IMG/VR virus record: IMGVR_UViG_3300028840_007197
Span: 1 to 64,000 of that record
DNA: 64,000 nucleotides
Reading direction: 5' to 3' (one strand)
From: a virus
The notes beneath the pieces are model-generated. The model ran no database searches. It was not told the origin of the DNA and worked only from the letters and a program-made list of their open reading frames with translations. Below are positions 3,847-35,592 of this stretch, in pieces. Every line of letters starts with the position of its first letter. Positions within the stretch are counted from its first letter, which is position 1. Position numbers and translations under genes: made by a program.

Positions 3847-3868
3847 AAATTTCCCTATTTATAACTAA

Positions 3869-4518: not shown

Positions 4519-4522
4519 TATT

Positions 4523-6071: not shown

Positions 6072-6122
6072 CGTCAGATGGACAATAAATGCGAAAAACT
6101 TACAACCTTAAGGAGTCTTTCA

Positions 6123-6275
6123 ATGGCGAAGAAGAAAGTGGACGTTAAGACAAAGGGATGCTCAAACTGTGCCCGTATGAAGTTTGTGAAAGAAGACGAT
6201 CGCTGTCCTAAGCTGCTCTCATGCGTCGTGCATGCAAAGCCTGGACAGGAGTTCAAGCACTATATACCTGCATAA
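6123..6275 (+). CDS. small cysteine-containing protein
   Basis: A 50-residue basic protein. The longer frame from 6078 is rejected because AGGAG (6111-6115) sits seven bases before the ATG at 6123. It has a K-K-K N-terminus and C-S-N-C, C-P and S-C residues that could bind one zinc ion. Function unknown. Its stop is eight bases before the next gene. Confidence 0.55.
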   Translation: MAKKKVDVKTKGCSNCARMKFVKEDDRCPKLLSCVVHAKPGQEFKHYIPA

Positions 6276-6283
6276 GGTTCACC

Positions 6284-6505
6284 ATGGTTAAGGTCGTTGA
6301 AGGAGTAGAGGGTTACTGGCACTATCATCTATCTGAGACAGGTATCTCGGGGCATCCGGCTCTATGTGGTAATAAAAGGGTCATGCATACCGAGATACCT
6401 CTCTCGACTTGGGGTAAAAAGAGCCATCTGAACGAAAAGTATTGTTTGGAGTGCGAGAAGAAAGCTGGTTCGAAGTGTCCTTCAAGTACCAGGTCCAACG
6501 GCTAA
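6284..6505 (+). CDS. small zinc-ribbon-like protein
   Basis: A 73-residue protein. The ATG at 6284 with AAGG upstream is preferred over a longer frame. It has H-Y-H near the start and C-L-E-C plus a later Cys at the end, and an A-L-C-G motif in the middle, giving a plausible treble-clef or zinc-ribbon arrangement. Function unknown. Its end overlaps the start region of the RNA ligase gene. Confidence 0.5.
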   Translation: MVKVVEGVEGYWHYHLSETGISGHPALCGNKRVMHTEIPLSTWGKKSHLNEKYCLECEKKAGSKCPSSTRSNG

Positions 6506-7824
6506 ACCCTCATGAGATGATCCTCGAAAGAGGAGTAAAGAAGCCTATAAGGGCCTTTATGAATGAGGCCTTATATGAGGCTTCTGAAGAGGAAATGTGG
6601 CGTCAGGCTGCCTGGGCCACAACCATACCCTCTGTCGAGTCCGTCGTCATAACTCCTGATGCCCATGCAGGAGCTGGGGTACCAATCGGTCTAGTGGTTG
6701 CTACCAAAGACTATGTCGCCCCTTGTGCAGCAGGGTACGATATATCCTGCGGCATGCTTTCTATGCGTACAAGCCTCATTGCTGAGAACATAAAGGATAA
6801 AATCATCAGGCGTTCCTGGATGCAGGAAGTGGAAAGCCGAGTGGCCTGCGGTTTAGGGGGTCATCGTGTAGACGGTCAGATCAGAATCAATGGTAATCTC
6901 TTTGAGGAGATACTTCAAAATGGTATACTGGCTCTTGATGCCCCCCAGAATATTCGAGGTCGCTTCGAACGAACACATCATATAGTGAAGAGATATGTTC
7001 GATTTAAGAAAGCGGCAGACCGTGGAATGCCCGAGCTGGCCAGTCTGGGGTCTGGAAACCATTTCCTTGAACTCCAACAGGACCAGAAAGGAACCGTATG
7101 GATTATGATCCACACGGGGTCTCGTGGATATGGGCACCAGGTAGCAACCGAATTCTTCAACAGAGGCTTTGAGTGGTGGAACCAAAGTCACCCCAACGAG
7201 ATACTCGGAAAAGGTCAGAAGGAACTCGTTTCCTTTCCAGTGGATTCTGAGATCGGTCAGGACTATCTCAATGCCATGAATCAGGCTGCTAACTACGCCA
7301 TAGTGAACAGATACCTCATCGCTAAAGCAGTAATAGAGGCCACGGAGAAGGTATTTAAGAGCACCCCGGAGATACTCTATGAAATAAGCCACAACCTCGT
7401 TCAATACGAGGGTGGCCTCTGGGTACATAGAAAGGGTGCCACAAGGGCCCTACCGGCCGGTCATGAGCTTCTTAAGGGATCTATTTTTGAGACCACCGGT
7501 CACCCTGTTCTGATTCCAGGCAGCATGGGTACTTCATCTGCTATTCTTACTCCAAAGGATAGCGAAAAATCCCTGCACAGCGTTAACCATGGCTGTGGAA
7601 GGGTAATGTCTCGCGGTCGGGCAAAACGGACTTTTGCCCAGGATGTCCTGAATAAAGAGATGGACGACATGGATATCCTCTATAACAGCAGGAATGTTCC
7701 TATTGATGAGTCCTTGCACTGTTATAAGGATATCGATGAGGTCCTCTCTACCGTTGAGGGAGCAGAACTTGCGATTACGGATATAAGGCTCTATCCAAGA
7801 GCCGTTATCAAGGGGGAGAGTTGA
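6442..7824 (+). CDS. rtcB: RtcB-family RNA ligase
   Basis: A 460-residue protein if translation starts at TTG 6442; ATG 6517 (435 residues) is the alternative, and neither has a good ribosome site. Family motifs occur in order: DAHAGAGVPIG (73-83), GYDISCGM with the manganese-binding Cys103, LGSGNHFLEL, HTGSRGYG, SHNL, the HRKGATRA segment containing the His that is guanylylated in RtcB, IPGSMGT and the final HGCGR. RtcB joins 2',3'-cyclic phosphate or 3'-phosphate RNA ends to 5'-OH ends using GTP and Mn2+. In a phage it most likely repairs tRNAs cut by host anticodon nucleases. The polynucleotide-kinase-like and macro-domain genes downstream support an RNA-repair role. Confidence 0.95.
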   Translation: MFGVREESWFEVSFKYQVQRLNPHEMILERGVKKPIRAFMNEALYEASEEEMWRQAAWATTIPSVESVVITPDAHAGAGVPIGLVVATKDYVAPCAAGYDISCGMLSMRTSLIAENIKDKIIRRSWMQEVESRVACGLGGHRVDGQIRINGNLFEEILQNGILALDAPQNIRGRFERTHHIVKRYVRFKKAADRGMPELASLGSGNHFLELQQDQKGTVWIMIHTGSRGYGHQVATEFFNRGFEWWNQSHPNEILGKGQKELVSFPVDSEIGQDYLNAMNQAANYAIVNRYLIAKAVIEATEKVFKSTPEILYEISHNLVQYEGGLWVHRKGATRALPAGHELLKGSIFETTGHPVLIPGSMGTSSAILTPKDSEKSLHSVNHGCGRVMSRGRAKRTFAQDVLNKEMDDMDILYNSRNVPIDESLHCYKDIDEVLSTVEGAELAITDIRLYPRAVIKGES

Positions 7825-8100: not shown

Positions 8101-8802
8101 ATGCTACCTCTTAAGGGAAGAGACATCATAGTTACGTCTGGGGGGACCCGAGAGTATATCGATGATGTCCGGGTAATGACCAACATCAGTACGGGTAAAC
8201 TCGGGGCCAACATAGCACAGTCTCTTCATGACCTGGGTGCTACGGTACATTATATCCACGGAGTGGGGGCTAAGATACCGAATATTGAGGGTATTCATCT
8301 TTATCAGGTTTCATCAGCCAATGACCTCTTAAACTCACTCAGGGGGGTCATCAATTCGTGTCGTAAATGGGGCAGCCCCGTTTTCAGCGTGATACATGCT
8401 ATGGCAGTATCGGATTTTTCGTTCAAGAGGGACAGTGCCGTCAAATGCAAATCCGATAGTGCTGAGGATTTTATCGAGTACATGCGTCGCACCATCACGA
8501 AAAACCCGAAGATAATCTCCTCCATCAAATCGTTGGAACCCAGTACAGTCCTCATAGGTTTCAAGTTTGAGGTGGGGGCTGATATATCTACTCTAGCAGA
8601 CCTTGCTCATAAATCTATTGAAAAGAACCATTGTGACCTCGTGGTAACCAACGATAAAGTAGAAATGGTCAAAAAGGGAGAACACATAGCCCATCTCTTT
8701 TTTTCCGACCATATGCACAACCTTGGATTCGTTGATTTCACGGTAAGTGGCAAAGATAGAATCGCGGACCACATTGCTGCAACTCTAGCTATGCTGAAAT
8801 GA
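8101..8802 (+). CDS. coaB: stand-alone CoaB-like (phosphopantothenoylcysteine synthetase) domain
   Basis: A 233-residue protein with AGGGGAGAGGG immediately before ATG. It begins with a Rossmann strand and TSGGTREYIDDVR followed by TNISTGKLG, the nucleotide-binding signature of the CoaB half of bacterial Dfp. LIGFKFE and K-N-H-C-D-L-V-V-T-N-D further on match the dimerisation and active-site segments. CoaB joins 4'-phosphopantothenate to cysteine with CTP for coenzyme A synthesis. The CoaC decarboxylase half is absent here; stand-alone CoaB exists in some bacteria and eukaryotes. Its use by a phage is unknown: boosting CoA or a related nucleotide-transfer reaction are both possible. Confidence 0.85.
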   Translation: MLPLKGRDIIVTSGGTREYIDDVRVMTNISTGKLGANIAQSLHDLGATVHYIHGVGAKIPNIEGIHLYQVSSANDLLNSLRGVINSCRKWGSPVFSVIHAMAVSDFSFKRDSAVKCKSDSAEDFIEYMRRTITKNPKIISSIKSLEPSTVLIGFKFEVGADISTLADLAHKSIEKNHCDLVVTNDKVEMVKKGEHIAHLFFSDHMHNLGFVDFTVSGKDRIADHIAATLAMLK

Positions 8803-9279: not shown

Positions 9280-9498
9280 ATGTACTGTGAAGATAATGAG
9301 TGTGAGAAGAGGATTAAGGGTTACTGCCGAATCCCTACAAAGCCCCTGAAACCGGAAGATGAACCTTACAGTCTTACTTATAGATGTACCTGTAAGGGAT
9401 GCGACTGGAGTGAGTTTGAGGCTGGTAATGTGAAAGAGCCCTGTGAATTCATTGGGGACCCTTACAATATAGATGGAGACTGTCTGGCTTTAAAATGA
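9280..9498 (+). CDS. cysteine-rich small protein
   Basis: A 72-residue acidic protein with nine cysteines, in pairs such as Y-C-E-D-N-E-C-E and C-T-C-K-G-C. This suggests a double zinc site or disulphide-stabilised fold. There is no signal peptide, so metal binding in the cytoplasm is more likely. The stop overlaps the next ATG by four bases (ATGA), indicating coupled translation. Confidence 0.6.
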   Translation: MYCEDNECEKRIKGYCRIPTKPLKPEDEPYSLTYRCTCKGCDWSEFEAGNVKEPCEFIGDPYNIDGDCLALK

Positions 9499-10214
9499 AA
9501 TATCTCATTTCTATAATGAACGGTCTGAACAGGTTCTCGCAAGCGGACATGAGCCATATCTTTGACATGTCTGGTCTTGAAAATTATGATGTAGACTGGT
9601 CTCCGACTGTTTCGGAACAGGAACGTGAATCCTCAACCCTCTTCTATGAGGTCCTGAAAGCGAAACCGCCAAAGGGGTCCCAACTTCTTTTCAACAGGGG
9701 GACACTTCTTAATCTTTCAGAATCATACCTTGAGCATAAACTTCAAACCAGTCCCCTTTGGAAGGATGATAGTGCCTGTAAGATATTCATAGCCAAGAGT
9801 TATGGCGTCGTAGATACTTTAAGGTCTCTCAAGAGATTTAAAAAACTTCCTAAAATAGACCTTATGATTCTGATAGATGGCTATGCAACACCTCTACCAC
9901 TTCGGTCGGTAACTAAGAGAAAAAATGGTAATCGCCTTTGGTTTGAGGTTCCGGAACAGGTTCAGAGTTCTCACTGTATAGTACAGAGAAAAGATGATAT
10001 CCGAGGCCTTTTTGCCTTCAATAGTATCAATACTATAGTAACTCCAACGATGGTTAGGAACAGGGTCTACTCTGAGTATAAGGATGGCTATAAAAGAGCA
10101 CTTACAGTTTCCCACTACAATATGGAAGAGATAGTAAGTACCATCCCTTGTTTTAATTACAATGGTAGAGATTATAACCTTAGAGGTCTATTAAGTTATT
10201 GGTTCAACAAATAG
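9495..10214 (+). CDS. possible alpha/beta-hydrolase-like protein
   Basis: A 239-residue protein. The central pattern is hydrophobic strand, A-K-S-Y-G-V (Ser102) and a helix, then strand L-M-I-L-I-D-G (Asp128) and late V-S-H-Y (His207). This order of Ser, Asp and His with nucleophile-elbow-like spacing is what an alpha/beta hydrolase would show, although the elbow reads K-S-Y-G rather than G-x-S-x-G. No signal peptide is present. Substrate unknown. It may instead be a non-catalytic member of the fold. It is translationally coupled to the preceding gene. Confidence 0.45.
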   Translation: MKYLISIMNGLNRFSQADMSHIFDMSGLENYDVDWSPTVSEQERESSTLFYEVLKAKPPKGSQLLFNRGTLLNLSESYLEHKLQTSPLWKDDSACKIFIAKSYGVVDTLRSLKRFKKLPKIDLMILIDGYATPLPLRSVTKRKNGNRLWFEVPEQVQSSHCIVQRKDDIRGLFAFNSINTIVTPTMVRNRVYSEYKDGYKRALTVSHYNMEEIVSTIPCFNYNGRDYNLRGLLSYWFNK

Positions 10215-15897: not shown

Positions 15898-16067
15898 CAG
15901 GTCTCTTCCATTTTCTTATTTGCTTCTTCAACCATTTTATCTATCTTCTCGAAATCACCTTTATTGTAATCTATCTCCGAATTTGTGTTCAAGACCTCAA
16001 CCACCAAACATCTTACCAACGCCCTGAGCTCACTGGAGCGCGGATCTGAATTTGAAGAGGGATTCAT
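15867..16067 (-). CDS. small helical protein
   Basis: A 66-residue protein with GGGAG eight bases before its ATG, inside the end of the HPr-like gene (38-base overlap). It is predicted helical with charged repeats in the second half and a C-C pair near the end. No family recognised. Confidence 0.5.
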   Translation of the reverse strand: MNPSSNSDPRSSELRALVRCLVVEVLNTNSEIDYNKGDFEKIDKMVEEANKKMEETCCKIEKLFLA

Positions 16068-16335
16068 CAGTTAACTCCCGATCTCCTAGCATAGCCTCTA
16101 TTGCATCGATAGCTTTTAATGCCACGGTATCATCAACGCCACTGATTGATACCGTAATGTCTGACCCGTAAGGGCGGGCCAACATAAGCATTTCCAGAAC
16201 ATTACATGCGTTTACATCCAGGTCCCTTGTTCTTATCCTGAACTGGCCCCCGATATGCCGAGCCAGGTCACAAATAAGGCTACAAGGACGCGCATGCATG
16301 CCCTCTTTAAGCTTTATTTTTATAATGCGTTCCAC
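16030..16335 (-). CDS. HPr-like phosphocarrier protein
   Basis: A 101-residue protein. Residues 11-18, E-G-M-H-A-R-P-C, match the phosphorylation site of PTS HPr, with His14 equivalent to catalytic His15. Then comes V-N-A-C-N where HPr has V-N-A-K-S, so the regulatory Ser46 is Asn45, and the I-T-V-S-I-S-G-V-D strand followed by the final A-L-K-A-I-D-A helix. The fold and active His are intact, while serine-phosphorylation control is lost and a 13-residue tail is added. It would accept phosphate from EI and pass it to EIIA or regulators in the host cytoplasm. No other PTS gene is present. Confidence 0.88.
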   Translation of the reverse strand: MERIIKIKLKEGMHARPCSLICDLARHIGGQFRIRTRDLDVNACNVLEMLMLARPYGSDITVSISGVDDTVALKAIDAIEAMLGDRELTDESLFKFRSALQ

Positions 16336-20372: not shown

Positions 20373-21368
20373 CTAATCGTAGATAAAGTGCTCAGTCGGA
20401 CCGTTATATTTTATATCATCCCCTTCTACTGAGAAATATTTGAATACATCAGGATATCTCTCTTTGAAAATTTTCAAGTCTCTCACCATCGCCGGTCTAA
20501 TCTCCCAGTGAGCGGCCGGGTCAGTCCTTTTCCTATATATCCAAATGCGCTCTTCAAGATTCGTGCTCATTACTACCTGAGAAACTATCCCAATAGGGAG
20601 GAACTGTCTGGCATCCTCCCTTCTCCACTTATTGTTTTTTATAAGGTCACTATAGAACTTCTGATAAGTTTCCATCATCTTTAAGGGTGTAATGCCGCTT
20701 TCTTCACTCTCCACGTCTCGATGTGGAGGAAGAACAACAACTAATTCTGACTCATCGACATACCGGGTCGATTCCTGACTATATACTGCAACCCGGTGAC
20801 GAACAAACTCATGTGTAAAACCCCTGCTGAAGCCACTATAACGGACGGTATGAGCTATGTGAACAGCTTTATCCTTCACCCCCAGAAGCTGATCCTCCCG
20901 AGATATCGGTACGATTTCAGAATTGAACATGGATATTTTAGGTTGTGGGCCTGATCTGAAAAAAGCAGGACAGAACTTTTCGAGGTCATCCCGAATCTCC
21001 GGATCGAGCTTGTTGGCAACGTATAGTTTTCTCCATGTCTCAAGATTTGCAGAGATAATAAGAGAGTTGTCATTAAAAGTCAAAAACATGAACTTCAAAT
21101 AAGGCCAGTATATTTTCATCAGAAGAATAAGGTCGCTATCCCTGAAGGGGTAAATGTTATAGCCTCTCCACCCGTGTTCGAGTACAGAAAAGTGACCCCT
21201 TTTCAGTATGCGCTCACAAAACCCTTGAGCAGTCTCGGGGGTAATAGGTCCTTTCTCCGACTGATAGCAGGTTCTCCCGGCCTTCTCAAGGACCATCTGG
21301 GCGAATTCATTAGTCTCCGGTGAGGGCCATGTAGCAAGAACATCAATAGAAGAAGCAGATAGTCTCAT
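20373..21368 (-). CDS. thyX: flavin-dependent thymidylate synthase
   Basis: A 331-residue protein, long for ThyX because of a C-terminal extension. The signature R-H-R-x7-S is present as RHRVAVYSQES (residues 190-200), with R-x-C-Y-x-S near the start and H-F-S-V-L-E-H (59-65). ThyX makes dTMP from dUMP using methylene-tetrahydrofolate, NADPH and FAD. It acts together with Tmk. The start codon follows a GGGTGA site. Confidence 0.95.
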   Translation of the reverse strand: MRLSASSIDVLATWPSPETNEFAQMVLEKAGRTCYQSEKGPITPETAQGFCERILKRGHFSVLEHGWRGYNIYPFRDSDLILLMKIYWPYLKFMFLTFNDNSLIISANLETWRKLYVANKLDPEIRDDLEKFCPAFFRSGPQPKISMFNSEIVPISREDQLLGVKDKAVHIAHTVRYSGFSRGFTHEFVRHRVAVYSQESTRYVDESELVVVLPPHRDVESEESGITPLKMMETYQKFYSDLIKNNKWRREDARQFLPIGIVSQVVMSTNLEERIWIYRKRTDPAAHWEIRPAMVRDLKIFKERYPDVFKYFSVEGDDIKYNGPTEHFIYD

Positions 21369-21735: not shown

Positions 21736-21897
21736 TCAAATTAAAGGTTCGGGAGGCCAGAGCTCATCCAAGGCCTCATTTATTTCATCCAGGGGCCACT
21801 TCCTTTTCTTAAGAATCTTTCTCATTTTCGTCTTTTCAAGAGGTTCTTTAATCTTTTTCACCTGTTTTTTTACCGCTTTCTTTCTCGGCATATGCAT
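21736..21897 (-). CDS. very basic small protein
   Basis: A 53-residue protein from ATG 21897, overlapping the stop of the glycosidase (TAATG), with AAGGA just upstream; an internal ATG at 21891 is the alternative start. The first 32 residues carry about fifteen Lys/Arg, the end is acidic and proline-rich (W-P-P-E-P). It may bind nucleic acid. Function unknown. Confidence 0.55.
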   Translation of the reverse strand: MHMPRKKAVKKQVKKIKEPLEKTKMRKILKKRKWPLDEINEALDELWPPEPLI

Positions 21898-23249
21898 TAA
21901 TCCTTCCATGTAATAGTTATTGTTTGAGTGCTGTCATTCTCATTCACATGTTCATAAAGGGTCCTGATGCCAGTAAGTCTAGACCAGTTAGACCCTCTCC
22001 ACCAGAACTTTGGATGGCCATTTACCGATATCTGCACTGAATCCAATCTCTCCGGTATGAATATCACTGTTGGAGCCTTCAAGTTCAGGGGCTTATAGGT
22101 AAGGTTAAAGACATTATCCCGAATACTATAGAGGGGGTCCTTACCGGCAATACGTTGCGGATATACCCTTACAAGTTTATTGACTACTGGTGTCTCTTCT
22201 CCACCATTTCCTATAAGACCATAATTATCATTATAGGATATGTAATCATAAGACCAATAAGTCCAACCCGCACAGAACTCATCGGTGATGTCCAGAAAGT
22301 CAGTTATATATGACATATAACCATCGACTTTAGACGATATCCCGAACTCGCCAAATATAAGAGGACACCTAAACTGTTGGGCCTCATGCACTTTGATGAG
22401 TACCCCCGCTTTTAATATTTGAGTATTAATCTCTGTATAAGATGTATTCAAAGAACGAAGCGGGTCATAATAGTGGGGGCTATAGACGGCATTTATAGGT
22501 TTAAATCTAAGATGTGTAGGAAGACCGGTGCTCGTTTCAATACGAGGCTCAAAGAACATTTTTGTCTTGTATCTATTTGAGACCATGTCCCTGACATCTT
22601 CGTAGAAAGGACTCAGATAATCTCTCTCAAAGTTTAAAAGCATTCCAGAATAGGGCTCATTGATTATATCTATTCCGATCACGTTTTTAAGGGTATCAAC
22701 ATGCCCGAGGACATACAAAAGAGCATCGATATAGGACCTTTGCAGTTCCTCACTACTCCAGAAGTACCGAAATGAGTTAATAACAGCCGGTTCCAGGTAA
22801 TTAAGGTGCCAGGGTTCTCTTTTATTGAAAGCTACTCCACAGTCATTTACAGACCATCTTGGGAATCCGTTTCCACCGAATTTTTTAGAATAGAGGTCCT
22901 GGTGGAAATCCACGACCACATCCACGCCAATCTGCTGGAGATACTTTATTCTCCCAACAATCCTCTTCATATAATATTCGTTATAAACGCCCTTATTTGG
23001 CTCTAGGGCCTCCCAGAAGACCAGGAAGCGAACCAGGTTGAACCCCCAGTCATTCAGGCGTCTGAGCTCCTCCTTAGACTGCCAGGGCATATAATCCATA
23101 CTGCTTTTTTGAAAATTAGAGATGTTCACGCCATGATAGATTACTATTCGGCCATCAGAATCACGAATATACTGAATCGATTCTTTTTTAGGCGAGATAT
23201 GAATGCAGGAAAGAGAAAGAAGAAAAACAGCTATTAGTACCGAACGCAT
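21897..23249 (-). CDS. GH5 endoglycoceramidase-like glycosidase, predicted lipoprotein
   Basis: A 450-residue protein. Its N-terminus is a signal with lipobox L-S-L-S-C (Cys15), so it should be secreted and lipid-anchored. The (beta/alpha)8 domain shows the GH5 sequence V-V-V-D-F-H-Q-D-L-Y-S-x-K-F-G-G-N-G-x-P, wording close to endoglycoceramidases. The acid/base is Glu198 in D-I-I-N-E-P and the nucleophile Glu301 in F-G-E-F-G. A beta-rich tail (about 380-450) resembles the C-terminal domain of that group. It would cleave beta-glycosidic bonds in a glycolipid or polysaccharide. A strong GGGGAGGTGA precedes the ATG. Very unusual for a phage. Confidence 0.85.
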   Translation of the reverse strand: MRSVLIAVFLLSLSCIHISPKKESIQYIRDSDGRIVIYHGVNISNFQKSSMDYMPWQSKEELRRLNDWGFNLVRFLVFWEALEPNKGVYNEYYMKRIVGRIKYLQQIGVDVVVDFHQDLYSKKFGGNGFPRWSVNDCGVAFNKREPWHLNYLEPAVINSFRYFWSSEELQRSYIDALLYVLGHVDTLKNVIGIDIINEPYSGMLLNFERDYLSPFYEDVRDMVSNRYKTKMFFEPRIETSTGLPTHLRFKPINAVYSPHYYDPLRSLNTSYTEINTQILKAGVLIKVHEAQQFRCPLIFGEFGISSKVDGYMSYITDFLDITDEFCAGWTYWSYDYISYNDNYGLIGNGGEETPVVNKLVRVYPQRIAGKDPLYSIRDNVFNLTYKPLNLKAPTVIFIPERLDSVQISVNGHPKFWWRGSNWSRLTGIRTLYEHVNENDSTQTITITWKD

Positions 23250-24548: not shown

Positions 24549-24624
24549 TGGCTGGGGTGTGAGGGTTCGAACCTCAAACCATTCGGTCCAGAGCCGAATG
24601 CTCTACCAATTGAGCTACACCCCA
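24549..24624 (-). tRNA. tRNA-Gln (anticodon CTG)
   Basis: Full cloverleaf: acceptor TGGGGTG/CACCCCA, D arm GCTC...GAGC, anticodon stem TTCGG/CCGAA with loop CTCTGGA (anticodon CTG), T loop TTCGAAC, discriminator G and an encoded CCA end. It reads CAG codons. Confidence 0.95.
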
Positions 24625-24633
24625 ATATAAAAA

Positions 24634-24914
24634 GGGTGGTCGACCGGAGTCGAACCGGCAAGGCATGATTAGGTCTCCTTATTATCGGCACAGGACTTCC
24701 TGCCGCTGTTTACAAACCCTCCTGGACCGTTACCGGATTCCAGGCAGCGTATCAGTGTCTTCCGCAAGCCGTAGAGGCCACTCCACAATCGCTACCCGCC
24801 CGCTTCCCTTTGTTTCGTTCCACAGACTTCCACGACCACGGGGTTCATGCCGGGTGATAAGCCCTCTCCCAATCCTGTTTGTCGGGCGCTCTCGCCAATT
24901 GAGCTACGACCACC
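24634..24914 (-). tRNA. tRNA-like gene interrupted by a structured insert of about 200 bases
   Basis: The 5' part (24914-24888) has acceptor strand GGTGGTC and a normal D arm GCTC/GAGC; the 3' part (24636-24658) has a T arm with TTCGACT and acceptor strand GACCACC, perfectly complementary to the 5' end. Between them no normal anticodon arm can be drawn. Instead, GGCATGA and TCATGCC (24845-24851 with 24662-24668) form a 7-pair helix that closes a 176-base insert. The insert contains a hairpin with GTAA tetraloop (24721-24744), a hairpin at 24771-24786 and one near 24686-24705. No CCA end is encoded. Best reading: a tRNA carrying a self-folding insert, perhaps an intron; anticodon cannot be assigned. 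It has no tmRNA tag frame. Confidence 0.55.
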
Positions 24915-24951
24915 ATAATACATGATATCAGTATTTCAAAGAACATTAAAG

Positions 24952-25024
24952 TTGGGGTATGTGGGCTTGAACCACAAACACGCGGCTTCAAAGGCCGTTG
25001 CTCTGCCCATTGAGCTATACCCCA
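24952..25024 (-). tRNA. tRNA-Gln (anticodon TTG)
   Basis: Acceptor TGGGGTA/TACCCCA, D arm GCTC...GAGC, anticodon stem ACGGC/GCCGC with loop CTTTGAA (anticodon TTG), T loop TTCAAGC, discriminator A. CCA is not encoded. It reads CAA (and CAG by wobble). Confidence 0.95.
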
Positions 25025-25090
25025 GTATATTTCATGCTTACTAAAAAGGCCCCTTTTACTACCATGAACAAATATTCAAAAGATTCAATA

Positions 25091-25225
25091 CTATTGAACC
25101 TCTTTTGTACGCTCTATATCATCAGAACTCACTAAGAGGGGAATCTGTTTATCATCCTGCCCTCTTGATAGCCTCGGGAAGAAGAAATTACCCCATGGGA
25201 CTTGCTCATAATTTAATGTTGTCAT
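25091..25225 (-). CDS. possible small protein between tRNAs
   Basis: A 44-residue open frame from ATG 25225 with weak AAGAG upstream. It contains W-G-N-F-F-F-P-R and an acidic end. It lies wholly in the 200-base gap between tRNA-Gln and tRNA-Pro and is followed by an imperfect inverted repeat (AAAAGATTCAAT / ATTGAACCTCTTTT, 25078-25105). No family recognised. Confidence 0.4.
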   Translation of the reverse strand: MTTLNYEQVPWGNFFFPRLSRGQDDKQIPLLVSSDDIERTKEVQ

Positions 25226-25237
25226 AACTCTTATCCA

Positions 25238-25315
25238 TGGTCGGAGTGACCGGATTTGAACCGATGACTTCCACGTCCCGAACGTGGCGCTCTAGCCAGA
25301 CTGAGCTACACTCCG
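25238..25315 (-). tRNA. tRNA-Pro (anticodon CGG)
   Basis: Acceptor CGGAGTG/CACTCCG, D arm GCTC...GAGC, anticodon stem CCACG/CGTGG with loop TTCGGGA (anticodon CGG), T loop TTCAAAT, discriminator A and encoded CCA. It reads CCG. Confidence 0.95.
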
Positions 25316-25325
25316 TCAACAAAAA

Positions 25326-25404
25326 TGGTCGGGGCGATAGGATTTGAACCTACGACCCTCTGGTCCCAAACCAGATGCGCTAAACCAGACTGCGCTACGC
25401 CCCG
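25326..25404 (-). tRNA. tRNA-Pro (anticodon TGG)
   Basis: Acceptor CGGGGCG/CGCCCCG, D arm GCGC...GCGC, anticodon stem TCTGG/CCAGA with loop TTTGGGA (anticodon TGG), T loop TTCAAAT, discriminator A and encoded CCA. It reads CCA and other proline codons. Confidence 0.95.
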
Positions 25405-25690: not shown

Positions 25691-26053
25691 TCATTCGATT
25701 ACAAGGAGCGCCTTCAAGCCTCTCGGAACGGGTACTCTATAGGCAATAACCCAAACAGTCTTTTCTGGATAATCGCCTATCGTATAGATACTTTCATATG
25801 AGTTGGCGATAGACATTATTCTGGCTTTCTCATATGACCAGACAATGATAGGGCAGCTTCTATCCTTACTAAGGCGAATAGCTGCCCCATCCACGAGGGC
25901 CTCTCTAATCCTCTTAGGCCTGAATATTGCGTTTTCAGCAACACAATATTTCATGTACTCGTGAACTATAATGATATTCCTAGTGGGGGGAAAGACATAA
26001 GCCTTCCTCCCACCGGAGGTCTCATCCTCCTGTGCTATCTTGTACCGACTCAT
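25691..26053 (-). CDS. hypothetical protein
   Basis: A 120-residue protein from ATG 26053; a TTG at 26062 is possible. It overlaps the end of the vWA gene by 32 bases, so the two are translated together. Alpha/beta pattern with N-I-I-I-V-H, P-I-I-V-W-S and W-V-I-A-Y-R strands. No motif recognised. It could be a partner of the vWA protein; this rests only on coupling. Confidence 0.55.
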   Translation of the reverse strand: MSRYKIAQEDETSGGRKAYVFPPTRNIIIVHEYMKYCVAENAIFRPKRIREALVDGAAIRLSKDRSCPIIVWSYEKARIMSIANSYESIYTIGDYPEKTVWVIAYRVPVPRGLKALLVIE

Positions 26054-27401
26054 GAACCCCAAACGATCGCATCATACTCTCTTGAGCACTGGAATTATAG
26101 GACAAGTTCATACCACAGACAGATGATGCCCGAGACTTTGCCATGGTATAGCCATATGAACCAGCAAGTTTAGCGCCGGAAGTATAATATACTGCTGCAT
26201 TGCCACTGTTTTCTATCATGGTCTGGAAACTACCCTTAAGTGCCGTCGAGTTCTCAAACCAGGCGTTATTTTCTGCAAGGAGGAGACCGGCGGTATAGAC
26301 TTCACGGGCATCATCATACTGCCCTTTATCCGCCAGCTTTTTGGCATCTTTGTGGATCTTCTGGGCCTCGATAAGCAGCAGTTGAGCCTTCACGTCTTTG
26401 TTCGCCTCAGTACTAGCATCATCTGGTTTCACGTACCTGATTTTTGCCTTTGCTTCAAGAACAGACCGCTCCTTGGTCTCGACATCAAGATAATCGACTC
26501 TTATGTCACAGACTTTAGTGGCCCTAGCTGTAACAGCCTGAGATGCGCTTGGCAGTTTAAGCTTGAAGAGAACATGCTTACTCTCACCATAGAACACGTC
26601 TTCAAGAGTAAATAGTACCTTACCGTCCGTTATACCCCGATAACCGGCCGACTCCTCATAGGAAATTTTACTGAGAAAGTCCACCAGCTCAACATTCCCT
26701 GAGGGGGTGACTTCCACTTTAAGGTCTTGAACGGCCATGGAAAGTAGACCACCAAGCTCCATAGCGAAGGCTCTCTTGCAATCATCCTCATTCTGAATAT
26801 AGAAATGATTTCCCCGGCCCCTGTTAGACATTGAAAGAAGGAGCTCAGGGTCGTAATCATGCCCAAACCCGAACGTGGAGAGACTCACATCGGGCCTTAA
26901 CTGGCTGACAATGTTAACCAGGTCCTCACGACCTGTCAGACCAGAAGTAGGAAGGCCGTCAGTAAGGAAGACGATTCTGACTATTTTTTTCTTATCAGAG
27001 GATGCAGCGCGTTCAAGTGCCCATTCTAGGGCCTCACTCATATTGGTCATGCTATGGGTGTAAGTATTATTTATAGAACTCTTAGCGTTAGCCTTCCCCG
27101 ATGAATCCATTACGGTTACCGGTATGATTTCCCAGCAGTTATCGCTAAAACCGATAACAGTCATGGTATCGTTCTCAGTAAGATTATCAATGAGCTTGTT
27201 GACCGTATCCTTCATGGAATCAACTTTTTTGCCAGCCATAGAACCCGAATAGTCAAGAGCAAGGACCATATGGAGGGGCGTTCGCTTGGAATCGGCCTTC
27301 TCGGGGACGTGAAAAACGACATCCATATGGACTTCGTTTTCCTTGTTGAAGGCAACCTTTTCGTGATCGAAGACAGCACGGACATTGAGCTTGGAGGACA
27401 T
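26022..27401 (-). CDS. von Willebrand A-domain protein, YfbK-like
   Basis: A 459-residue protein. The vWA domain (about 42-225) has MIDAS D-Y-S-G-S-M (residues 50-55), a T-N-M-S segment and F-L-T-D-G-L. A beta-rich region (230-335) and a helical repeat-like region (about 340-395, resembling a TPR pair) follow, as in bacterial YfbK-type proteins. No signal peptide. It has AGGAG six bases before the ATG and its own strong promoter 150 bases upstream. Probable metal-dependent protein-binding scaffold; partner could be the Ycf46-like AAA+ protein encoded nearby (inference). Confidence 0.85.
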   Translation of the reverse strand: MSSKLNVRAVFDHEKVAFNKENEVHMDVVFHVPEKADSKRTPLHMVLALDYSGSMAGKKVDSMKDTVNKLIDNLTENDTMTVIGFSDNCWEIIPVTVMDSSGKANAKSSINNTYTHSMTNMSEALEWALERAASSDKKKIVRIVFLTDGLPTSGLTGREDLVNIVSQLRPDVSLSTFGFGHDYDPELLLSMSNRGRGNHFYIQNEDDCKRAFAMELGGLLSMAVQDLKVEVTPSGNVELVDFLSKISYEESAGYRGITDGKVLFTLEDVFYGESKHVLFKLKLPSASQAVTARATKVCDIRVDYLDVETKERSVLEAKAKIRYVKPDDASTEANKDVKAQLLLIEAQKIHKDAKKLADKGQYDDAREVYTAGLLLAENNAWFENSTALKGSFQTMIENSGNAAVYYTSGAKLAGSYGYTMAKSRASSVCGMNLSYNSSAQESMMRSFGVHESVQDSTGG

Positions 27402-28778: not shown

Positions 28779-30380
28779 TCATATCTGCTCATCAACGCCG
28801 CCCTGAACGTCATTTATCAGCTTATCAATCTGGTCCCGTATACGGCTCACATCAGAACTTTCGGTCTTACTTGCGAAACGAGCTCTAAGACCATCCTGCT
28901 TATCATCATCCCAACCTACCCACTTCAACAGGTAATTAAGCTGCTCAGCCATGGTGGTGACGAGATTAGTCTTATTCCTCAATACCCGAAGTACTGTTTC
29001 AGTATCGAGCTCTTTCCCGGCATGGAACGCGTCATACATGGACTCTTTCAGTACTTGTTCTATTTCCCTTCCAGAAAGGTCCTCGCTGGAAGAAGCCAAC
29101 TGATCCAGGAAGAACTTTGAGGTGTCTTTTTTGAGCTTTCTAAGATGGATGGAGAAAATATCCTTTCGTTCCTGAAATTGAGGAAGACCAACAAAGAAGG
29201 TCTCGTCAAACCTTGATATGAGCTCTGGCGGTAGATTCTCGATATTATTAGACGTTGCAACCGTAAACACCGAATGGTTACAGTCCTGCAACCAGATAAG
29301 GAATGAACCTATCACACGTGCTGTAACTCCACCATCACTGTATGTGCTACTATGGATACCGGCAAAGCCCTTTTCAATCTCATCGATCATAAGAACACAG
29401 GGGGAAATGTTCTCAACTATTTTAAGCATTCTTCGTAGATTGGCCTCAGACTCTCCTACTCGTATTGAAAAGAGCCTTCCGAGGTCCAGCTGAATTACCG
29501 GGAGCCCCCATTGATTACCAATCGCTTTACATATCATGGATTTTCCACAGCCCGAAAGCCCCACGAGAAGCAGACCCTTAAGCAGTGGCAGACCAAAGGC
29601 CCTGCCCTCAACGGTCCATCCTCCGGCACTCTTCTCTATCCATGCCTTAAGCTGTGGCATACCCCCAATATCATTAAAAGTTAGGTCTGTTTCGAGCAGG
29701 GTCAAGAGGTCGGTTTTGGCTATAGAAGCCTTCTTAAAATCTCTGATGAAACCAAGTTCTATCCCCTTATACATGAAAAAAGATTGAAGATAGGCCTGCT
29801 CCACCTCAAAACGGGTCAGACCTTTAAGATTGTTCACCACCTCTTCACTGGGAGCCTTTCCAATCTTACTCAATTCCAGTTTGGACGATATATGGTCACT
29901 ATGTTCTTTAAGCTCATTTTCATCGGGAAGGTCAAAGAATACGATCTCTGACAATCTATCGAGGTCTGGAGGTATACACAGAGTCTGAGAAATAAAAACC
30001 ATATTACAGGTGAAGTTCTCATCAAGTTGATATCTCGATAAAATATCTTTAATCTTACGTATATTCTGTGGGTCTCTTATATAGTTTTGGCAGTCTAAGA
30101 AAACATACGTCTTAAAGGTATGTTGCCTCTTTGAATCAAAGGTCTGTTTTAATATGGAATCGAGAACCTGTATAGTCGTCTGAGCAGCGCCTTTAGAGGC
30201 TGAAGAGAAGGATTCATCTAGAAGGGTCGTTAATTCATACACACCTGAAAAGGTGGTGCTATAGACATGATAAGAGCCCTTTTTATACTTATCTCTCAGA
30301 TATAATAGAACTTCAAGGTCACTCTCAGCTACAACAAAAATCAGGGGCCTATTAGCCCCTAGGCACTGATGGAGTTTCAT
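28779..30380 (-). CDS. Ycf46-like AAA+ ATPase
   Basis: A 533-residue protein. The N-terminal 230 residues form a degenerate ATPase-like domain without Walker A. The C-terminal AAA+ domain has F-N-D-I-G-G, G-L-S-G-C-G-K-S (274-281), Walker B C-V-L-M-I-D-E-I-E-K (328-337), A-T-S-N-N and I-S-R-F-D-E. The phrase A-F-G-L-P-x-x-K-G and R-V-G-E-S-E match the chloroplast/cyanobacterial Ycf46 family. The DUF1257 and DUF2997 genes upstream are its usual neighbours. It should remodel a protein or complex using ATP; the substrate is unknown. Confidence 0.9.
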   Translation of the reverse strand: MKLHQCLGANRPLIFVVAESDLEVLLYLRDKYKKGSYHVYSTTFSGVYELTTLLDESFSSASKGAAQTTIQVLDSILKQTFDSKRQHTFKTYVFLDCQNYIRDPQNIRKIKDILSRYQLDENFTCNMVFISQTLCIPPDLDRLSEIVFFDLPDENELKEHSDHISSKLELSKIGKAPSEEVVNNLKGLTRFEVEQAYLQSFFMYKGIELGFIRDFKKASIAKTDLLTLLETDLTFNDIGGMPQLKAWIEKSAGGWTVEGRAFGLPLLKGLLLVGLSGCGKSMICKAIGNQWGLPVIQLDLGRLFSIRVGESEANLRRMLKIVENISPCVLMIDEIEKGFAGIHSSTYSDGGVTARVIGSFLIWLQDCNHSVFTVATSNNIENLPPELISRFDETFFVGLPQFQERKDIFSIHLRKLKKDTSKFFLDQLASSSEDLSGREIEQVLKESMYDAFHAGKELDTETVLRVLRNKTNLVTTMAEQLNYLLKWVGWDDDKQDGLRARFASKTESSDVSRIRDQIDKLINDVQGGVDEQI

Positions 30381-30390
30381 TGATTATACT

Positions 30391-30615
30391 CTAACCACAG
30401 AAAATTTTATTAGATCCGTATTTAGTATAGTTTGCCCGTTCTTCTGCGGACATTACATATTTGATGATAAAATCGCTGAATTCGGTATTAACCCATTCGA
30501 TATAGGTGCTACCGTCGGGAAGGATCTGAATCTCCTGAACCTTGTTAGGGTCTAATGATTTGGAGAGTGATGATTCCCTGATCGTTGACGGACTGTCTGA
30601 TTTCGTTTCCTTCAC
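30391..30615 (-). CDS. small hypothetical protein, possibly DUF2997-like
   Basis: A 74-residue frame with GTG start, overlapping the DUF1257 gene by 71 bases. The core I-Q-I-L-P-D-G-S-T resembles the first hairpin of DUF2997 proteins. There is no start codon nearer the DUF1257 stop, so the exact start is doubtful. It lies ten bases upstream of the Ycf46-like gene. Confidence 0.5.
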   Translation of the reverse strand: MKETKSDSPSTIRESSLSKSLDPNKVQEIQILPDGSTYIEWVNTEFSDFIIKYVMSAEERANYTKYGSNKIFCG

Positions 30616-30859
30616 GAATGGCCTGGTCCCTATAAAAGTTCACGGTATAGTTCTGTTTGATTTTATCGACCTTCGTCTGATGAACAGAGTCATACTTGAT
30701 CTTACCGGCATTTCCATCGATGGTAATGCCGCCATACGTTCCGGAAACCGTTACCATTTCGTTAGAATTCTTGTTGTAGGAATACTTCAACTCATCAAGA
30801 GTCTGAAGCATGATATCCATATTCTGGACCTGGAACTCAACCGTAATACTCCTGGACAT
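30545..30859 (-). CDS. DUF1257 (Ycf35-like) protein
   Basis: A 104-residue protein from ATG 30859, preferred over a longer frame because AAGGGATGA precedes it. It begins M-S-R-S-I-T-V-E-F and contains M-x-x-L-D-E-L, Y-D-S-V-H-Q-T-K-V-D-K-I-K-Q-N-Y, and ends I-I-T-L-Q-I-I-R. This order matches DUF1257, the Ycf35 family, of unknown function. It is encoded with Ycf46 and DUF2997 in cyanobacteria and here. Confidence 0.75.
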   Translation of the reverse strand: MSRSITVEFQVQNMDIMLQTLDELKYSYNKNSNEMVTVSGTYGGITIDGNAGKIKYDSVHQTKVDKIKQNYTVNFYRDQAIREGNEIRQSVNDQGIITLQIIRP

Positions 30860-30863
30860 GATG

Positions 30864-31040
30864 TCATCCCTTTCTCTGCACAGACTGGAAAGCTGGCTGA
30901 TGGTCCTCATCCTTCTCCGACGTTACCTTACCGGCACTATGGCCAAGGTCTGAAAGCTTGTGGCACTGTTCGCTATGCTCCAAACCTACTATTTTCGAGT
31001 CCCCATTCGGATAGATGGTAATCTCTGAATTTGGCAACAT
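30864..31040 (-). CDS. DUF2997-like small protein
   Basis: A 58-residue protein from ATG 31040, ending four bases before the DUF1257 start. It has the family beginning E-I-T-I-Y-P-N-G-D, a single central Cys (E-Q-C) and then an L-G-x-x-x-G-K-V segment. DUF2997 proteins are small partners of DUF1257. Length is normal. Confidence 0.65.
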   Translation of the reverse strand: MLPNSEITIYPNGDSKIVGLEHSEQCHKLSDLGHSAGKVTSEKDEDHQPAFQSVQRKG

Positions 31041-31052
31041 CGAAGCCCCCTT

Positions 31053-31769
31053 TTATGGATGGATATTCAGTTTTTGAAAGAGTCGATGCGAGGTAAACTG
31101 ACCATTCTGCTCTAGAGATATGCCCCATTTATCCATGAACGCCTGCATATCCTTCTGATGCCACTCAGATACATTCTTTGAGGCGTTCAATCGATGGAGA
31201 ACCTTCGATTCAGGCTCATACCATACTTCCCAGCCTCGATATCTAGCCCAGAAGCAGTAATCGGAGTCCGAATAGACGAGATACATGTTCTCATCTAGGA
31301 CCCCGATACGCTTAACCATCTCTCGGCGCAGCATCACACTGGCAAAGTTGACCCAGATAGACTTTTCCGGTATCCTGCAATGACCCATAGAGACTCTGCC
31401 ACCCTTATGGACTCCTGATGGAAAAGCTCTCATGGTTCCGCCATGCCGGATAAGGTCCCTATCCTCGGGATCTAACTGCATGGACCCAGCAATTCCAACT
31501 TTCTCATGAGACTCTATCCTTCTTATAAGGGCATCCTGAGCTCCAGGGAGGACCACAGCGTCCTGATTTAGAAGCCAGATATAGGGGGAAGAGCTAGATA
31601 GTATGCCCTCATTGACGGCCTTTGTGAATCCCCTATTCGTTTCATTATTATCAATAATAATGAGATTGTAGCTAGACTCCTCACAGTGGTCCTTGATTGA
31701 GCCTATGAGACGGTGCATGTCCCCAGGATCGCCATAGAGGACCACAATGATATCGGTGGTAATAGGCAT
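31053..31769 (-). CDS. family 2 glycosyltransferase
   Basis: A 238-residue protein from ATG 31769 (GAGG six bases upstream). It has I-I-I-D-N-N-E-T-N-R-G-F, W-L-L-N-Q-D-A (DxD-like), and Y-S-D-S-D-Y-C-F-W near 170. Typical soluble GT2 enzyme. It is separate from the three-gene transferase cluster at 11.8-14.8 kb and sits between the sigma-like gene and the DUF2997 gene. Confidence 0.85.
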   Translation of the reverse strand: MPITTDIIVVLYGDPGDMHRLIGSIKDHCEESSYNLIIIDNNETNRGFTKAVNEGILSSSSPYIWLLNQDAVVLPGAQDALIRRIESHEKVGIAGSMQLDPEDRDLIRHGGTMRAFPSGVHKGGRVSMGHCRIPEKSIWVNFASVMLRREMVKRIGVLDENMYLVYSDSDYCFWARYRGWEVWYEPESKVLHRLNASKNVSEWHQKDMQAFMDKWGISLEQNGQFTSHRLFQKLNIHP

Positions 31770-31843
31770 TAAATACCTCAAGAGAATGAGCCGGAATCGA
31801 ATTATCCCGGCCTTACAAAATGATACCGAATCTGGAAGATATA

Positions 31844-32536
31844 TTAAAGTTTGCGGCGGATACGCTTTTTTCTTGGCTTCCTGGGAAAATCGAAGCCATA
31901 CTCACGAAGAGCCTGTTCTATCTCCTTTTTAAGGAGACATATGAACATATCCGTGACACCGTACATCTTTGCTATCTCGCTGTTCTTGTATCCCTCTTTA
32001 ATGTAGCAGTAGACATCATAGCGGGTGCAACGTTTGACCTGAACGTCCTTGAAGGACCGTTTCTTGAGAGGGATACGTTTAGATCCATACCCCTTCACGA
32101 ATTTTCTCTCGAAGTCGCTCAGCTCAAGAGGAAGGCCCTCTGGGTCATCAGAAACTGCGTTTCGCCTGAGCATATCACGATACTCGTTGGCGATACGGTT
32201 GTAGCGTAGTATGAAATCGATATCTTCACTCGATTCCTGTCCTGAGAGGGCTTGAAAGGAAACAGTCTGCTTGTTTCTCCAGGTGCGGTTTTCCCTGGAG
32301 AAGACCTGATTGCAGATCATGTTTCTTACGATGCGGAAAAGATACGTCGAGACCTTAGAGCGTTGAGGATCGTAATGATCCTCCATAAGTCTACCGGAAA
32401 TAATTCGCACACATAAATCATTGGTGACATCTCCTGCCGTATCGACCCCAAAAGCATGGCAGAGGGATGTTACCATGTGGCGAATCTCCTCATGATTCTG
32501 TCGAACGAACTCCTTTGAATTGTTGATGTACACCAT
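31844..32536 (-). CDS. sigma-70-family (ECF-like) sigma factor
   Basis: A 230-residue protein with GAGGGGG seven bases before ATG. Region 2 (about 20-85) contains Y-D-P-Q-R-S-K-V-S-T-Y-L-F-R-I-V-R-N, which is the core-binding and -10 recognition pattern of ECF sigma factors. A C-terminal HTH (about 178-212; Y-K-N-S-E-I-A-K-M-Y-G-V) acts as region 4, followed by a very basic tail. It would redirect host RNA polymerase to phage promoters, probably late ones. Confidence 0.75.
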   Translation of the reverse strand: MVYINNSKEFVRQNHEEIRHMVTSLCHAFGVDTAGDVTNDLCVRIISGRLMEDHYDPQRSKVSTYLFRIVRNMICNQVFSRENRTWRNKQTVSFQALSGQESSEDIDFILRYNRIANEYRDMLRRNAVSDDPEGLPLELSDFERKFVKGYGSKRIPLKKRSFKDVQVKRCTRYDVYCYIKEGYKNSEIAKMYGVTDMFICLLKKEIEQALREYGFDFPRKPRKKRIRRKL

Positions 32537-33120: not shown

Positions 33121-35592
33121 CTAAAGGCCGAAAAAGCGTGCTAGAGCCAAAAAGCCATCTCTACTAACCTTCAAATCTGATACCATAAGATGATTACCCT
33201 TATTGTCCTTGATTCGAAGGACAGCCTTTTTACCGTTATAGACAGGCTTTTTCTGATCCTCAACTAGAAACGGTATGATTGTATTCAACATCCTCAAGGA
33301 ACTCATATTGGTTCGCTTTATCGTATAGACGAGTTCCTCCTCTAAATTGGTATTTGTTTCACCCGAATTCAAGGAGAAATCGCTTTCAGGATTATTTTCA
33401 GCAGGAGACTCAGGAAGTTGAACTTCCTCTTTTTTAAGAATTTCAGGGGCGATATTCTCAGGAACGATTTCCGAAATCTTTAAATCATTCTCTTTATTTT
33501 GAGAATCCGATTCTCGCTCTTGAGAGTTTTCAGCCGGGTTTTCAGTGCGGCCTTTACTCTCATCTACTACATCTGCAGCCTTATGAAAAGTCAGCGTTTC
33601 TATGTTTTCTAACTCAGGATGCTCCTCAAAGAAATTACTCGTAGCATACCATGAGTCACCGTACTTAGCCTCAATTACAAGAGGGACTGGCCACTTAAGG
33701 ATACCCTGCAAAATATCCCTGAGCTTCATAATCTCGTTTAGCTTTGGAACATATTCCAACAGTTTCTCAGTCTTTATCTCGAAGACGAGCTCGTCATGCA
33801 TCGTTATCAAAACCCTGATCTCGTCCTGGAGATTATTGGACCGGATCCAGTTACTAACCCTTACCATGGCAGTCTTCATGATATCCGCTGACGTACCCTG
33901 AACAAGGGTGTTAACCGAACAGCGGTCTCCACGAGCCTGCATGACTCTATTATCAGAGTCATAGAAGATATTCAGGGGACGTACACGACCCATTGCCGTT
34001 TTTACGTGCTTTAGTTTCCTGGCTTTAGCTTTCTCAACCTCCATCCATCTCTTGAGTCTAGGCAGAGAAGCAAAAAAGGATACCAGTATCCTGCGAGCCT
34101 CCGGCTCGGATATTTTAGCCTGTTGTGCTATACCTACAGAACCAGCCCCGTACAGAGATTGGAAATTAACGGTTTTCCCCACTTGACGCTCGGCCTTCGA
34201 TATCTCCTGCCTATTGAAGATAGACTGACCGGTCTGACGGTGAAGATCAGCTCCGTTAAGAAAAGCATTGACCCATTTGGGCTCCTGTGACAGATTAGCA
34301 GCTACCCGCAACTCCTCTCCGGAATAATCCATAGCCACCATGGTATAACCAGGGCGAGCTACTAGAGCCTTTCTGAGGTTCGGGTCATCTGGGGAATAGT
34401 TTTTAGGGAGACTCTGGATATTCATACCACAGTAGCCGTCTATATCTATTCCCTTACCACCTGGGGATGAAAAGCGGCCGGTATCCGTGCCCGACTGATT
34501 GAACTGGAGTTTTATACATCCGTCTTCATCTTTATTCTTGAGAAGATTCACTATATACGTAGAAAGGCATTTCTCAAGGCCCCTGTACTGGACTATCTTC
34601 TTAATGACTGGATACTCATCCTGAATTTTTTCAAGGGTAGCATTATCTGTGGAGTATTGACCGGAGGCCAGTCTCTCCTTTTCAGGATAGCGATACTTCA
34701 AGAAATCAAACAGTATCCGACCTAATTGCTGGGGACTCCCGAGATTGAACTTAGTACCGACCAGACCATAAATATCATCCTCTATGGACTTGATTTTCTG
34801 TTCTATTTCAATCTTTAAATTTTCAAGGTATTCTACATCTATCTTAACGAGATTGGCCTCCATATCCATCACAACACTCGTGACACGCTTCTCAAGATTA
34901 TAAATGGCCATCTGCTGTTTAATAATATCCTGGCTCATAAAAAAGTTATAGAGGTCCAGGGTACAGACAGCGTCCGATCCACCATAAATGTAGTTTATCT
35001 TCGGAGACGTTAGGTCGAAGCGCTTATTCTTCGAGACATCGTCAAACTCCAGCATGGGCTGGTTCAAGAGTTTATTAGAGAGTACTTTTAATCCTATCTC
35101 CTTACTCCCTGCATCATATAATCTGGCTAGAATAAGGGTATCCTCAAACCGGTCATATTCCCGTATATCTAAGCCATAGTTCTTCAGAATAGCCCGGTCA
35201 TATTTAGAATTATGATAGATAGTAACACAATGAGTGCAGAGCCTTTTTATCTCAGAAAAAACCTCATCCTCAGGGAGATTATACTCAGCTCCTTCTATAT
35301 GTTTTACCGGGACATAGATACCTACTTTAGGGTTATAGGAGAGACAGAAACCAACCAGCTTGGAAGCTGATTCTGTCTTATCTCCCACTCTCTTCGATCG
35401 TGTGTTTAAGCCGGTAGTTTCTAAGTCTAGGGCGCATTTCCCAAATTCTATCGCTTCATCAATAAACTGTCGAAGTTCATCAACAGATGAAATCAGCCGG
35501 AACTCCCTGTCCTTCATCCATGGCATCTTGGATGTGAGCTCTTTTACACTATCCTCAAGAAACTCCGAGAATGTAGCCCCGACTATTTTCAT
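33121..35592 (-). CDS. polA: family A DNA polymerase with extra C-terminal domain
   Basis: An 823-residue protein. The 3'-5' exonuclease is complete: D-L-E-T-T-G (Asp56, Glu58), H-N-S-K-Y-D (127-132) and Y-G-G-S-D (203-207). Polymerase motif A is D-Y-S-G-E-E-L-R (422-429), motif B runs from R469 through N-F and Y481, and motif C is H-D-E (599-601). There is no 5'-3' nuclease domain. After residue 660 a charged linker (670-750) leads to a small domain (755-823) absent from ordinary Pol I, somewhat like the end of DnaE. Replicative polymerase of the phage. Its ATG overlaps the primase gene end. Confidence 0.95.
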   Translation of the reverse strand: MKIVGATFSEFLEDSVKELTSKMPWMKDREFRLISSVDELRQFIDEAIEFGKCALDLETTGLNTRSKRVGDKTESASKLVGFCLSYNPKVGIYVPVKHIEGAEYNLPEDEVFSEIKRLCTHCVTIYHNSKYDRAILKNYGLDIREYDRFEDTLILARLYDAGSKEIGLKVLSNKLLNQPMLEFDDVSKNKRFDLTSPKINYIYGGSDAVCTLDLYNFFMSQDIIKQQMAIYNLEKRVTSVVMDMEANLVKIDVEYLENLKIEIEQKIKSIEDDIYGLVGTKFNLGSPQQLGRILFDFLKYRYPEKERLASGQYSTDNATLEKIQDEYPVIKKIVQYRGLEKCLSTYIVNLLKNKDEDGCIKLQFNQSGTDTGRFSSPGGKGIDIDGYCGMNIQSLPKNYSPDDPNLRKALVARPGYTMVAMDYSGEELRVAANLSQEPKWVNAFLNGADLHRQTGQSIFNRQEISKAERQVGKTVNFQSLYGAGSVGIAQQAKISEPEARRILVSFFASLPRLKRWMEVEKAKARKLKHVKTAMGRVRPLNIFYDSDNRVMQARGDRCSVNTLVQGTSADIMKTAMVRVSNWIRSNNLQDEIRVLITMHDELVFEIKTEKLLEYVPKLNEIMKLRDILQGILKWPVPLVIEAKYGDSWYATSNFFEEHPELENIETLTFHKAADVVDESKGRTENPAENSQERESDSQNKENDLKISEIVPENIAPEILKKEEVQLPESPAENNPESDFSLNSGETNTNLEEELVYTIKRTNMSSLRMLNTIIPFLVEDQKKPVYNGKKAVLRIKDNKGNHLMVSDLKVSRDGFLALARFFGL

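Follow-up and report, generated by a model that had tools for sequence, protein, structure and literature searches.

A diverged DUF2997-DUF1257-Ycf46-like operon with an added small gene in a phage: a possible p97-like protein-remodelling machine

The window analyzed here (positions 1–64,000 of a linear IMG/VR phage record of 94,906 bp) carries an operon of four genes on the minus strand. In order of transcription these encode a 58 aa protein that is probably DUF2997-like, a DUF1257 (Ycf35-family) protein, a third small protein of 74 aa and a 533 aa AAA+ ATPase of the Ycf46 family. The ATPase is confidently modelled as a p97-like tandem AAA protein in which one ring lacks an ATP site and the second displays intact motifs. 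There is about an even chance that the operon specifies a protein-remodelling machine of the p97/Cdc48 type, i.e. an unfoldase of two rings served by its own adaptor proteins. The set is not the first of its kind in phages, as the trio is already present in GenBank in Rhizobium phage RHph_I4; the window set is a diverged variant with an added component.

The DUF2997-like ORF is found at positions 30864–31040, the DUF1257 gene at 30545–30859, the third small gene at 30391–30615 and the ATPase gene at 28779–30380, and the genes overlap or almost abut. The open reading frames of the earlier note were recovered at the same positions and in the same order, on the minus strand; the ORF between DUF1257 and the ATPase was absent from its list. 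Shine-Dalgarno-like stretches are present 5′ of the first two genes, AAAAGGGGGCTTCG-ATG for the 58 aa ORF and GAGAAAGGGATGACATC-ATG for DUF1257. Comparison with the most closely related phage locus, L020, shows that nucleotide differences pile up at codon position 3 in all four genes. For the small ORFs the values are 0.71–0.74 at position 3 vs. 0.28–0.46 at positions 1 and 2, and because of this excess these ORFs look coding. The operon is confirmed as real.

Directly upstream is a family-2 glycosyltransferase gene (31053–31781, minus strand; Pfam Glycos_transf_2; phmmer match to L020 with E = 5e-109). It has an equivalent position in L020 only, and it is probably outside of the ATPase system. 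Farther upstream on the same strand are a Sigma-70 region-2 protein (31844–32536; Pfam Sigma70_r2, E = 1.7e-5; a counterpart is present in L020) and then a replication block with DNA polymerase A (33121–35592; Pfam DNA_pol_A), a primase-like protein and a DnaB-like helicase. The replication block with DNA polymerase A is common to the window clade, and in L020, L021, L023 and L026 the cluster is likewise preceded by a polymerase homologue.

Several other loci in the window were recorded. A VWA-domain protein is encoded at 26022–27401, a few genes downstream of the ATPase, and related phages have no counterpart. This gene and a second VWA gene at 17038 were considered as partners of the system and rejected; they are absent from related loci, except that the gene at 26022 is represented in one cyanobacterial locus. 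Two tRNA-Gln and two tRNA-Pro genes are found within less than 1 kb at 24549–25404. The window also has phage-borne genes for an RtcB RNA ligase (6442–7824) and a DFP (CoaB-like) domain protein (8101–8802), together with genes for a PTS HPr-like protein (16030–16335), a ThyX thymidylate synthase (20373–21368) and a GH5 cellulase (21897–23249).

The AAA domain of the ATPase (Pfam AAA, E = 7e-25; phrog_8638, E = 1e-93) is the only domain of the operon recognized by Pfam, which recognizes neither small protein. The C-terminal module, D2, spans residues about 226–488 and contains Walker A (GLSGCGKS), Walker B (MIDEIE), sensor 1 (N378) and an arginine (R390); in an alignment of 85 ATPase proteins these elements are invariant or nearly so. 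The N-terminal region, D1 (residues about 1–222, nt positions 29715–30380, minus strand), has no Walker A, and the same alignment displays no P-loop in D1. A nearly invariant ExxR motif (E20, R23) occupies the site in D1 where the P-loop would be. Both halves agree with the Ycf46 family, i.e. a C-terminal AAA module with Walker A, Walker B and sensor 1, and an N-terminal half without a P-loop that is homologous to and alignable with cyanobacterial Ycf46.

The AlphaFold2 model of the ATPase (mean pLDDT 92) predicts that the N-terminal half repeats the order of elements in the C-terminal AAA module, with a beta-alpha core followed by a four-helix lid, so that D1 appears as a degenerate AAA-like region. 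The nearest solved structures by Foldseek are the D1-D2 modules of p97/Cdc48 (E = 4e-21), with alignments near whole length, and a profile search gives Cdc48/VAT with E = 4e-92. Members of the window clade are also two residues short around the Arg finger (ELI--SRFDE, residues about 387–393), where nearly all other aligned Ycf46-like proteins have both. This deletion could weaken ATPase activity in the clade.

The most likely start of the DUF1257 gene is the ATG at 30859, rather than 30910, and this gives a protein of 104 aa (MSRSITVEF...). The protein falls below the gathering cut-off of PF06868 and gives no match there. A DUF1257 profile developed from phage loci was remade after removal of the window and its two nearest relatives, L020 and L022; when run against all ORFs of at least 30 aa from the fetched loci, it detects the window ORF over nearly its full length with E = 2.1e-7. 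Canonical members of the same profile, in cultured phages and in bacteria, pass the PF06868 cut-off. The family assignment made in the earlier note thus holds despite the sub-threshold Pfam score. The AlphaFold2 model (pLDDT 88.7) has no significant match in the PDB or viral fold libraries, and an adaptor role therefore cannot be read from the structure. Weak resemblances to the spermine synthase N domain, BamC and KA1-like domains are not significant and were set aside. Searches of PDB sequences with DUF1257 and DUF2997 gave no match.

The assignment of the 58 aa protein is less direct. It is not matched at the gathering cut-off of PF11211, and as a single sequence it scores weakly with the DUF2997 profile (E = 4.6), although this is the best score in the window and is at the expected position. 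In five further phages, the gene just ahead of DUF1257 encodes a counterpart. All six proteins conserve a hairpin motif, IxIxxDG, and a Cys that follows it and is invariant. When the six-phage alignment is compared by hhalign with the profile of 40 DUF2997 proteins, P = 4.8e-5 and the probability is 68%. The DUF2997 identity proposed earlier is thus supported at the level of profiles and by the invariant Cys, but not by Pfam or by the single sequence, and the protein is probably DUF2997-like.

One Cys is invariant among the 40 aligned DUF2997 proteins, an alignment from which the variants of a few phages, lacking the Cys and having a His-rich tail, were left out. The phage DUF2997 proteins of L037, L067, L074 and L076 appear to have lost the Cys. 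Five loci that have a DUF3150-like gene (L032, L037, L067, L074 and L076) display a DUF2997-like protein with a His-rich tail, and by simple count four of the five have no Cys in the usual stretch.

The third small gene has an uncertain GTG start (at 30615); its conserved core is at 30394–30555 and ends in ...IFCG. The protein displays an IxILPDGSTxI hairpin and a C-terminal -[FY]CG, and its N-terminal part resembles the DUF2997 hairpin. L020 and L060 have counterparts, as do two Omnitrophota loci (L101 and L102), where the gene is immediately 5′ of Ycf46. The possibility that a C-terminal -CG is a general feature of the system was rejected, as a coherent family is present only in the window, L020, L060 and the two Omnitrophota.

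The earlier note had proposed a search for the trio in other large phages, and the trio does occur in many other phages. The comparison covered 86 phage loci selected through the ATPase alone: 79 viral loci from an ATPase-only scan and seven cultured phages, with a few near-duplicates among them. Both DUF1257 and DUF2997 are present in 42 of these, DUF1257 alone in six and DUF2997 alone in two; neither is detectable in 36, where, as most of the phage records are fragments, absence may mean that a gene is off the contig or too diverged. Because the family profiles were iterated, there is some danger of drift among their weak members; the window was tested with profiles that exclude it. Every significant DUF1257 or DUF2997 match is on the same strand as the ATPase. 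Gene order varies, with ATPase-DUF1257-DUF2997 in 33 loci, DUF1257-DUF2997-ATPase in seven, DUF1257-ATPase in five and other orders, including ATPase-DUF2997-DUF1257, in the rest; thus the association outlasts rearrangement. The linkage of the small families to the ATPase is not due to chance. Seventeen cultured-phage records obtained with a DUF1257 query overlap the ATPase list, and in each record compared the ATPase is on the same strand and within about 3 kb. When a single DUF1257 protein was used as the query in a reverse scan of viral sequences, it retrieved only itself.

In one phage (L031, positions 9335–9904), DUF1257 and DUF2997 are naturally fused into a single ORF, which speaks for a complex of the two, be it physical or functional. 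That the trio is one unit, as had been suggested, is supported by its joint travel, the common strand and this fusion, but not by the 36 loci where the ATPase has no detectable DUF1257 or DUF2997. The ATPase may also work without these proteins, or with others such as DUF3150. The DUF3150 family is confirmed by Pfam in eight neighbors, and a DUF3150-like protein is near the ATPase in 24 loci by iterated search. It may be a further or alternative partner of the ATPase, and the partners may be interchangeable.

The genes that neighbor the set in phages are diverse. Chaperone genes adjoin it in two loci only, i.e. a ClpX-type AAA and DnaJ in L024 and a GroES-like gene in L071, and a thioredoxin gene is just upstream in L022. 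No ferredoxin, radical-SAM (by CxxxCxxC motif), thioredoxin, chaperone or DUF3150 gene is beside the operon of the window. In Rhizobium and Pseudomonas phages and in the window clade, the set adjoins replication genes and not tail genes.

Two phage sets are the closest points of comparison. In the cultured Rhizobium phage RHph_I4 (EVC24_084-087), the same three families are annotated as ATPase, hypothetical, DUF1257 and DUF2997, and these adjoin replication genes. The order ATPase-x-DUF1257-DUF2997 differs from that of the window, DUF2997-DUF1257-third gene-ATPase, and the small proteins of the window are far more diverged. A related 469-kb jumbo phage (G001; IMG/VR contig 3300028840_006907, loci L001/L020) has two complete sets. 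One has its genes in the same order as the window, with both the extra small gene and the glycosyltransferase farther 5′, and its ATPase is 60% identical to that of the window. The other is a canonical set, DUF1257-TM protein-DUF2997-ATPase, whereas neither a second set nor a second ATPase copy was found elsewhere in the 94.9-kb record of the window. This canonical set (L194, G001:C1:3000-18000, at about 3423–7135) comprises DUF1257, a membrane protein, DUF2997, a small helix-turn-helix (UPF0122-like) protein and a Ycf46-like ATPase. No paper on the phage trio was found in the literature searched.

With the window-clade ATPase as the query, 80 bacterial and archaeal loci were fetched. Outside of the cyanobacteria the trio is commonly contiguous or close, as in Omnitrophota, Myxococcota, Planctomycetota, spirochaetes and others, and in one Hodarchaeota MAG. 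Two related spirochaete MAGs (Spirochaetales and Treponema; loci L192, L193, L103 and L105) carry Ycf46, DUF2997 and DUF1257 within clusters for a contractile injection system, which also have genes for a sheath, a gp19-like tube protein, CIS_tube and a radical-SAM protein.

The ycf35 and ycf46 genes are retained in many algal plastids and cyanobacteria. The earlier note had described the trio as a conserved cluster of cyanobacteria, but this is not the arrangement found. All three families are present in each of the 16 genomes tested, with at least two DUF1257 genes, and they are split over two loci in all 16. One DUF1257 paralogue is directly after ycf46, where there is no DUF2997; another is beside DUF2997 in a different part of the genome, at a distance of about 3.1 Mb in G009 and 1.6 Mb in G019. 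In the three loci inspected a 4Fe-4S ferredoxin gene (fed7) follows the DUF2997-ycf35 pair, and this arrangement has been reported in Synechocystis as cluster g (PMC4284462). Some cyanobacteria have extra complete DUF1257-DUF2997-Ycf46 sets in addition to the split loci (L188; L189, in the genome of L159, Anabaena azotica; L191, in the genome of L149, Chroococcus), and these are possibly mobile or prophage-borne. In a tree of the ATPases, the window and five other phages form a separate clade outside of the cyanobacteria with a support of 0.998, and a recent capture of the phage gene from cyanobacteria is thereby rejected. Functional work on ycf35 and ycf46 is almost absent from the literature searched, and DUF1257 is rarely mentioned. 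A Synechocystis ycf46 mutant reportedly has lower activity of the carbonic anhydrase EcaB, as cited in PMC7496141.

The p97/Cdc48/VAT proteins are the nearest solved relatives of the window ATPase and have the tandem AAA fold in common with it. They differ in that the window protein has no p97 N domain, its D1 is without an ATP site, and its partners are small bacterial or phage proteins instead of ubiquitin adaptors. As modelled, the likeness is one of fold and probably also of mode of action. A second point of comparison is Pvc15 of contractile injection systems, a tandem AAA protein in which D2 is the sole active ATPase and which helps load cargo (PMC11495950). Pvc15/Afp15 thus resembles the window ATPase in its single active module, D2, while it has an extra N domain; the two are likened by description and not by sequence. 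Taken together, the p97-like tandem fold, the Pvc15 design and the injection-system setting in spirochaetes suggest a remodeller that pulls its client through a pore, with a docking ring and with DUF1257 and DUF2997 as adaptors. The same-strand linkage, the natural fusion, the two sets of G001 and the chaperone genes of L024 and L071 are in keeping with this reading.

In this model the Ycf46-like protein would most likely assemble as a two-ring hexamer. The first AAA ring, having lost its ATP site, would have a docking or structural role, and the second would hydrolyze ATP and draw the client protein through the pore, presumably unfolding it. DUF1257, DUF2997 and, in the window variant, the third small protein would be dedicated adaptors or regulators. 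The conserved Cys of DUF2997 is likely a working residue, for redox sensing, Fe-S contact or client contact. The machine is probably made together with the replication genes and would remodel one particular phage or host protein. The radical-SAM, ferredoxin and chaperone neighbors hint at a client that is redox- or Fe-S-linked.

The radical-SAM and ferredoxin neighbors bear on a different reading, namely that the system is a redox or Fe-S maturation machine whose ATPase acts on an Fe-S or radical enzyme, to remodel it or restore its activity, while the single-Cys DUF2997 is redox-active or modified and is served by a ferredoxin or radical-SAM enzyme. This is judged unlikely. It agrees with the invariance of the DUF2997 Cys in the 40-protein alignment and its retention in the window clade, with the cyanobacterial ferredoxin operon and with the thioredoxin gene of L022. 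A radical-SAM gene of the Fer4_12 type immediately precedes Ycf46 in five bacterial loci (L103, L105, L119, L160 and L178), and such genes are in the neighborhood of five phage loci (L025, L027, L029, L033 and L034). Radical-SAM-like genes are present in 12 of 44 phage loci with DUF1257 or DUF2997 vs. one of 34 without (Fisher P = 0.005), a comparison which is post hoc and uncorrected, with genes hand-picked from CxxxCxxC motif matches and only partly Pfam-confirmed. However, the window itself has no radical-SAM gene by the CxxxCxxC motif, and the Cys is lost in the four phage proteins given above.

Somewhat less probable is a chaperone for virion assembly or cargo loading, where the ATPase would hold a phage protein, structural or ejected, in the unfolded state or deliver it to the particle, like Pvc15. 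The spirochaete clusters, the one-active-ring logic common with Pvc15 and the GroES-like and ClpX/DnaJ neighbors in two phages are consistent with this. Yet the injection-system setting is confined to two related spirochaetes, the phage sets adjoin replication genes in the groups noted above, and the set is present in 16 of 16 tested cyanobacteria, mostly without adjoining particle genes. It is more improbable still that the ATPase works alone and that the small genes are passengers retained through shared transcription. The 36 loci without detectable partners would fit, as would the separation of DUF2997 from ycf46 in cyanobacteria, but the genes remain linked on one strand in 50 of the 86 divergent phage loci, and also in unrelated bacteria, even though their order has changed, DUF1257 directly follows ycf46 in cyanobacteria, and the DUF1257-DUF2997 fusion occurs naturally.

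The remodelling machine may have a wider reach, although this extension is quite doubtful: a p97-like unfoldase class shared by phages, many bacteria and, in a split form, cyanobacteria, in which the dead first ring would dock a DUF1257/DUF2997 adaptor and DUF2997 would be a redox-active or radical-SAM-modified Cys protein that picks out or tags the client. The presence of a compact set in dozens of phages, with a dead and a live ring and with partners that can be fused, gives a defined biochemical question, i.e. what the client is and what role DUF1257 and DUF2997 have. Phages thus offer a route to finding what Ycf46, DUF1257 and DUF2997 do.
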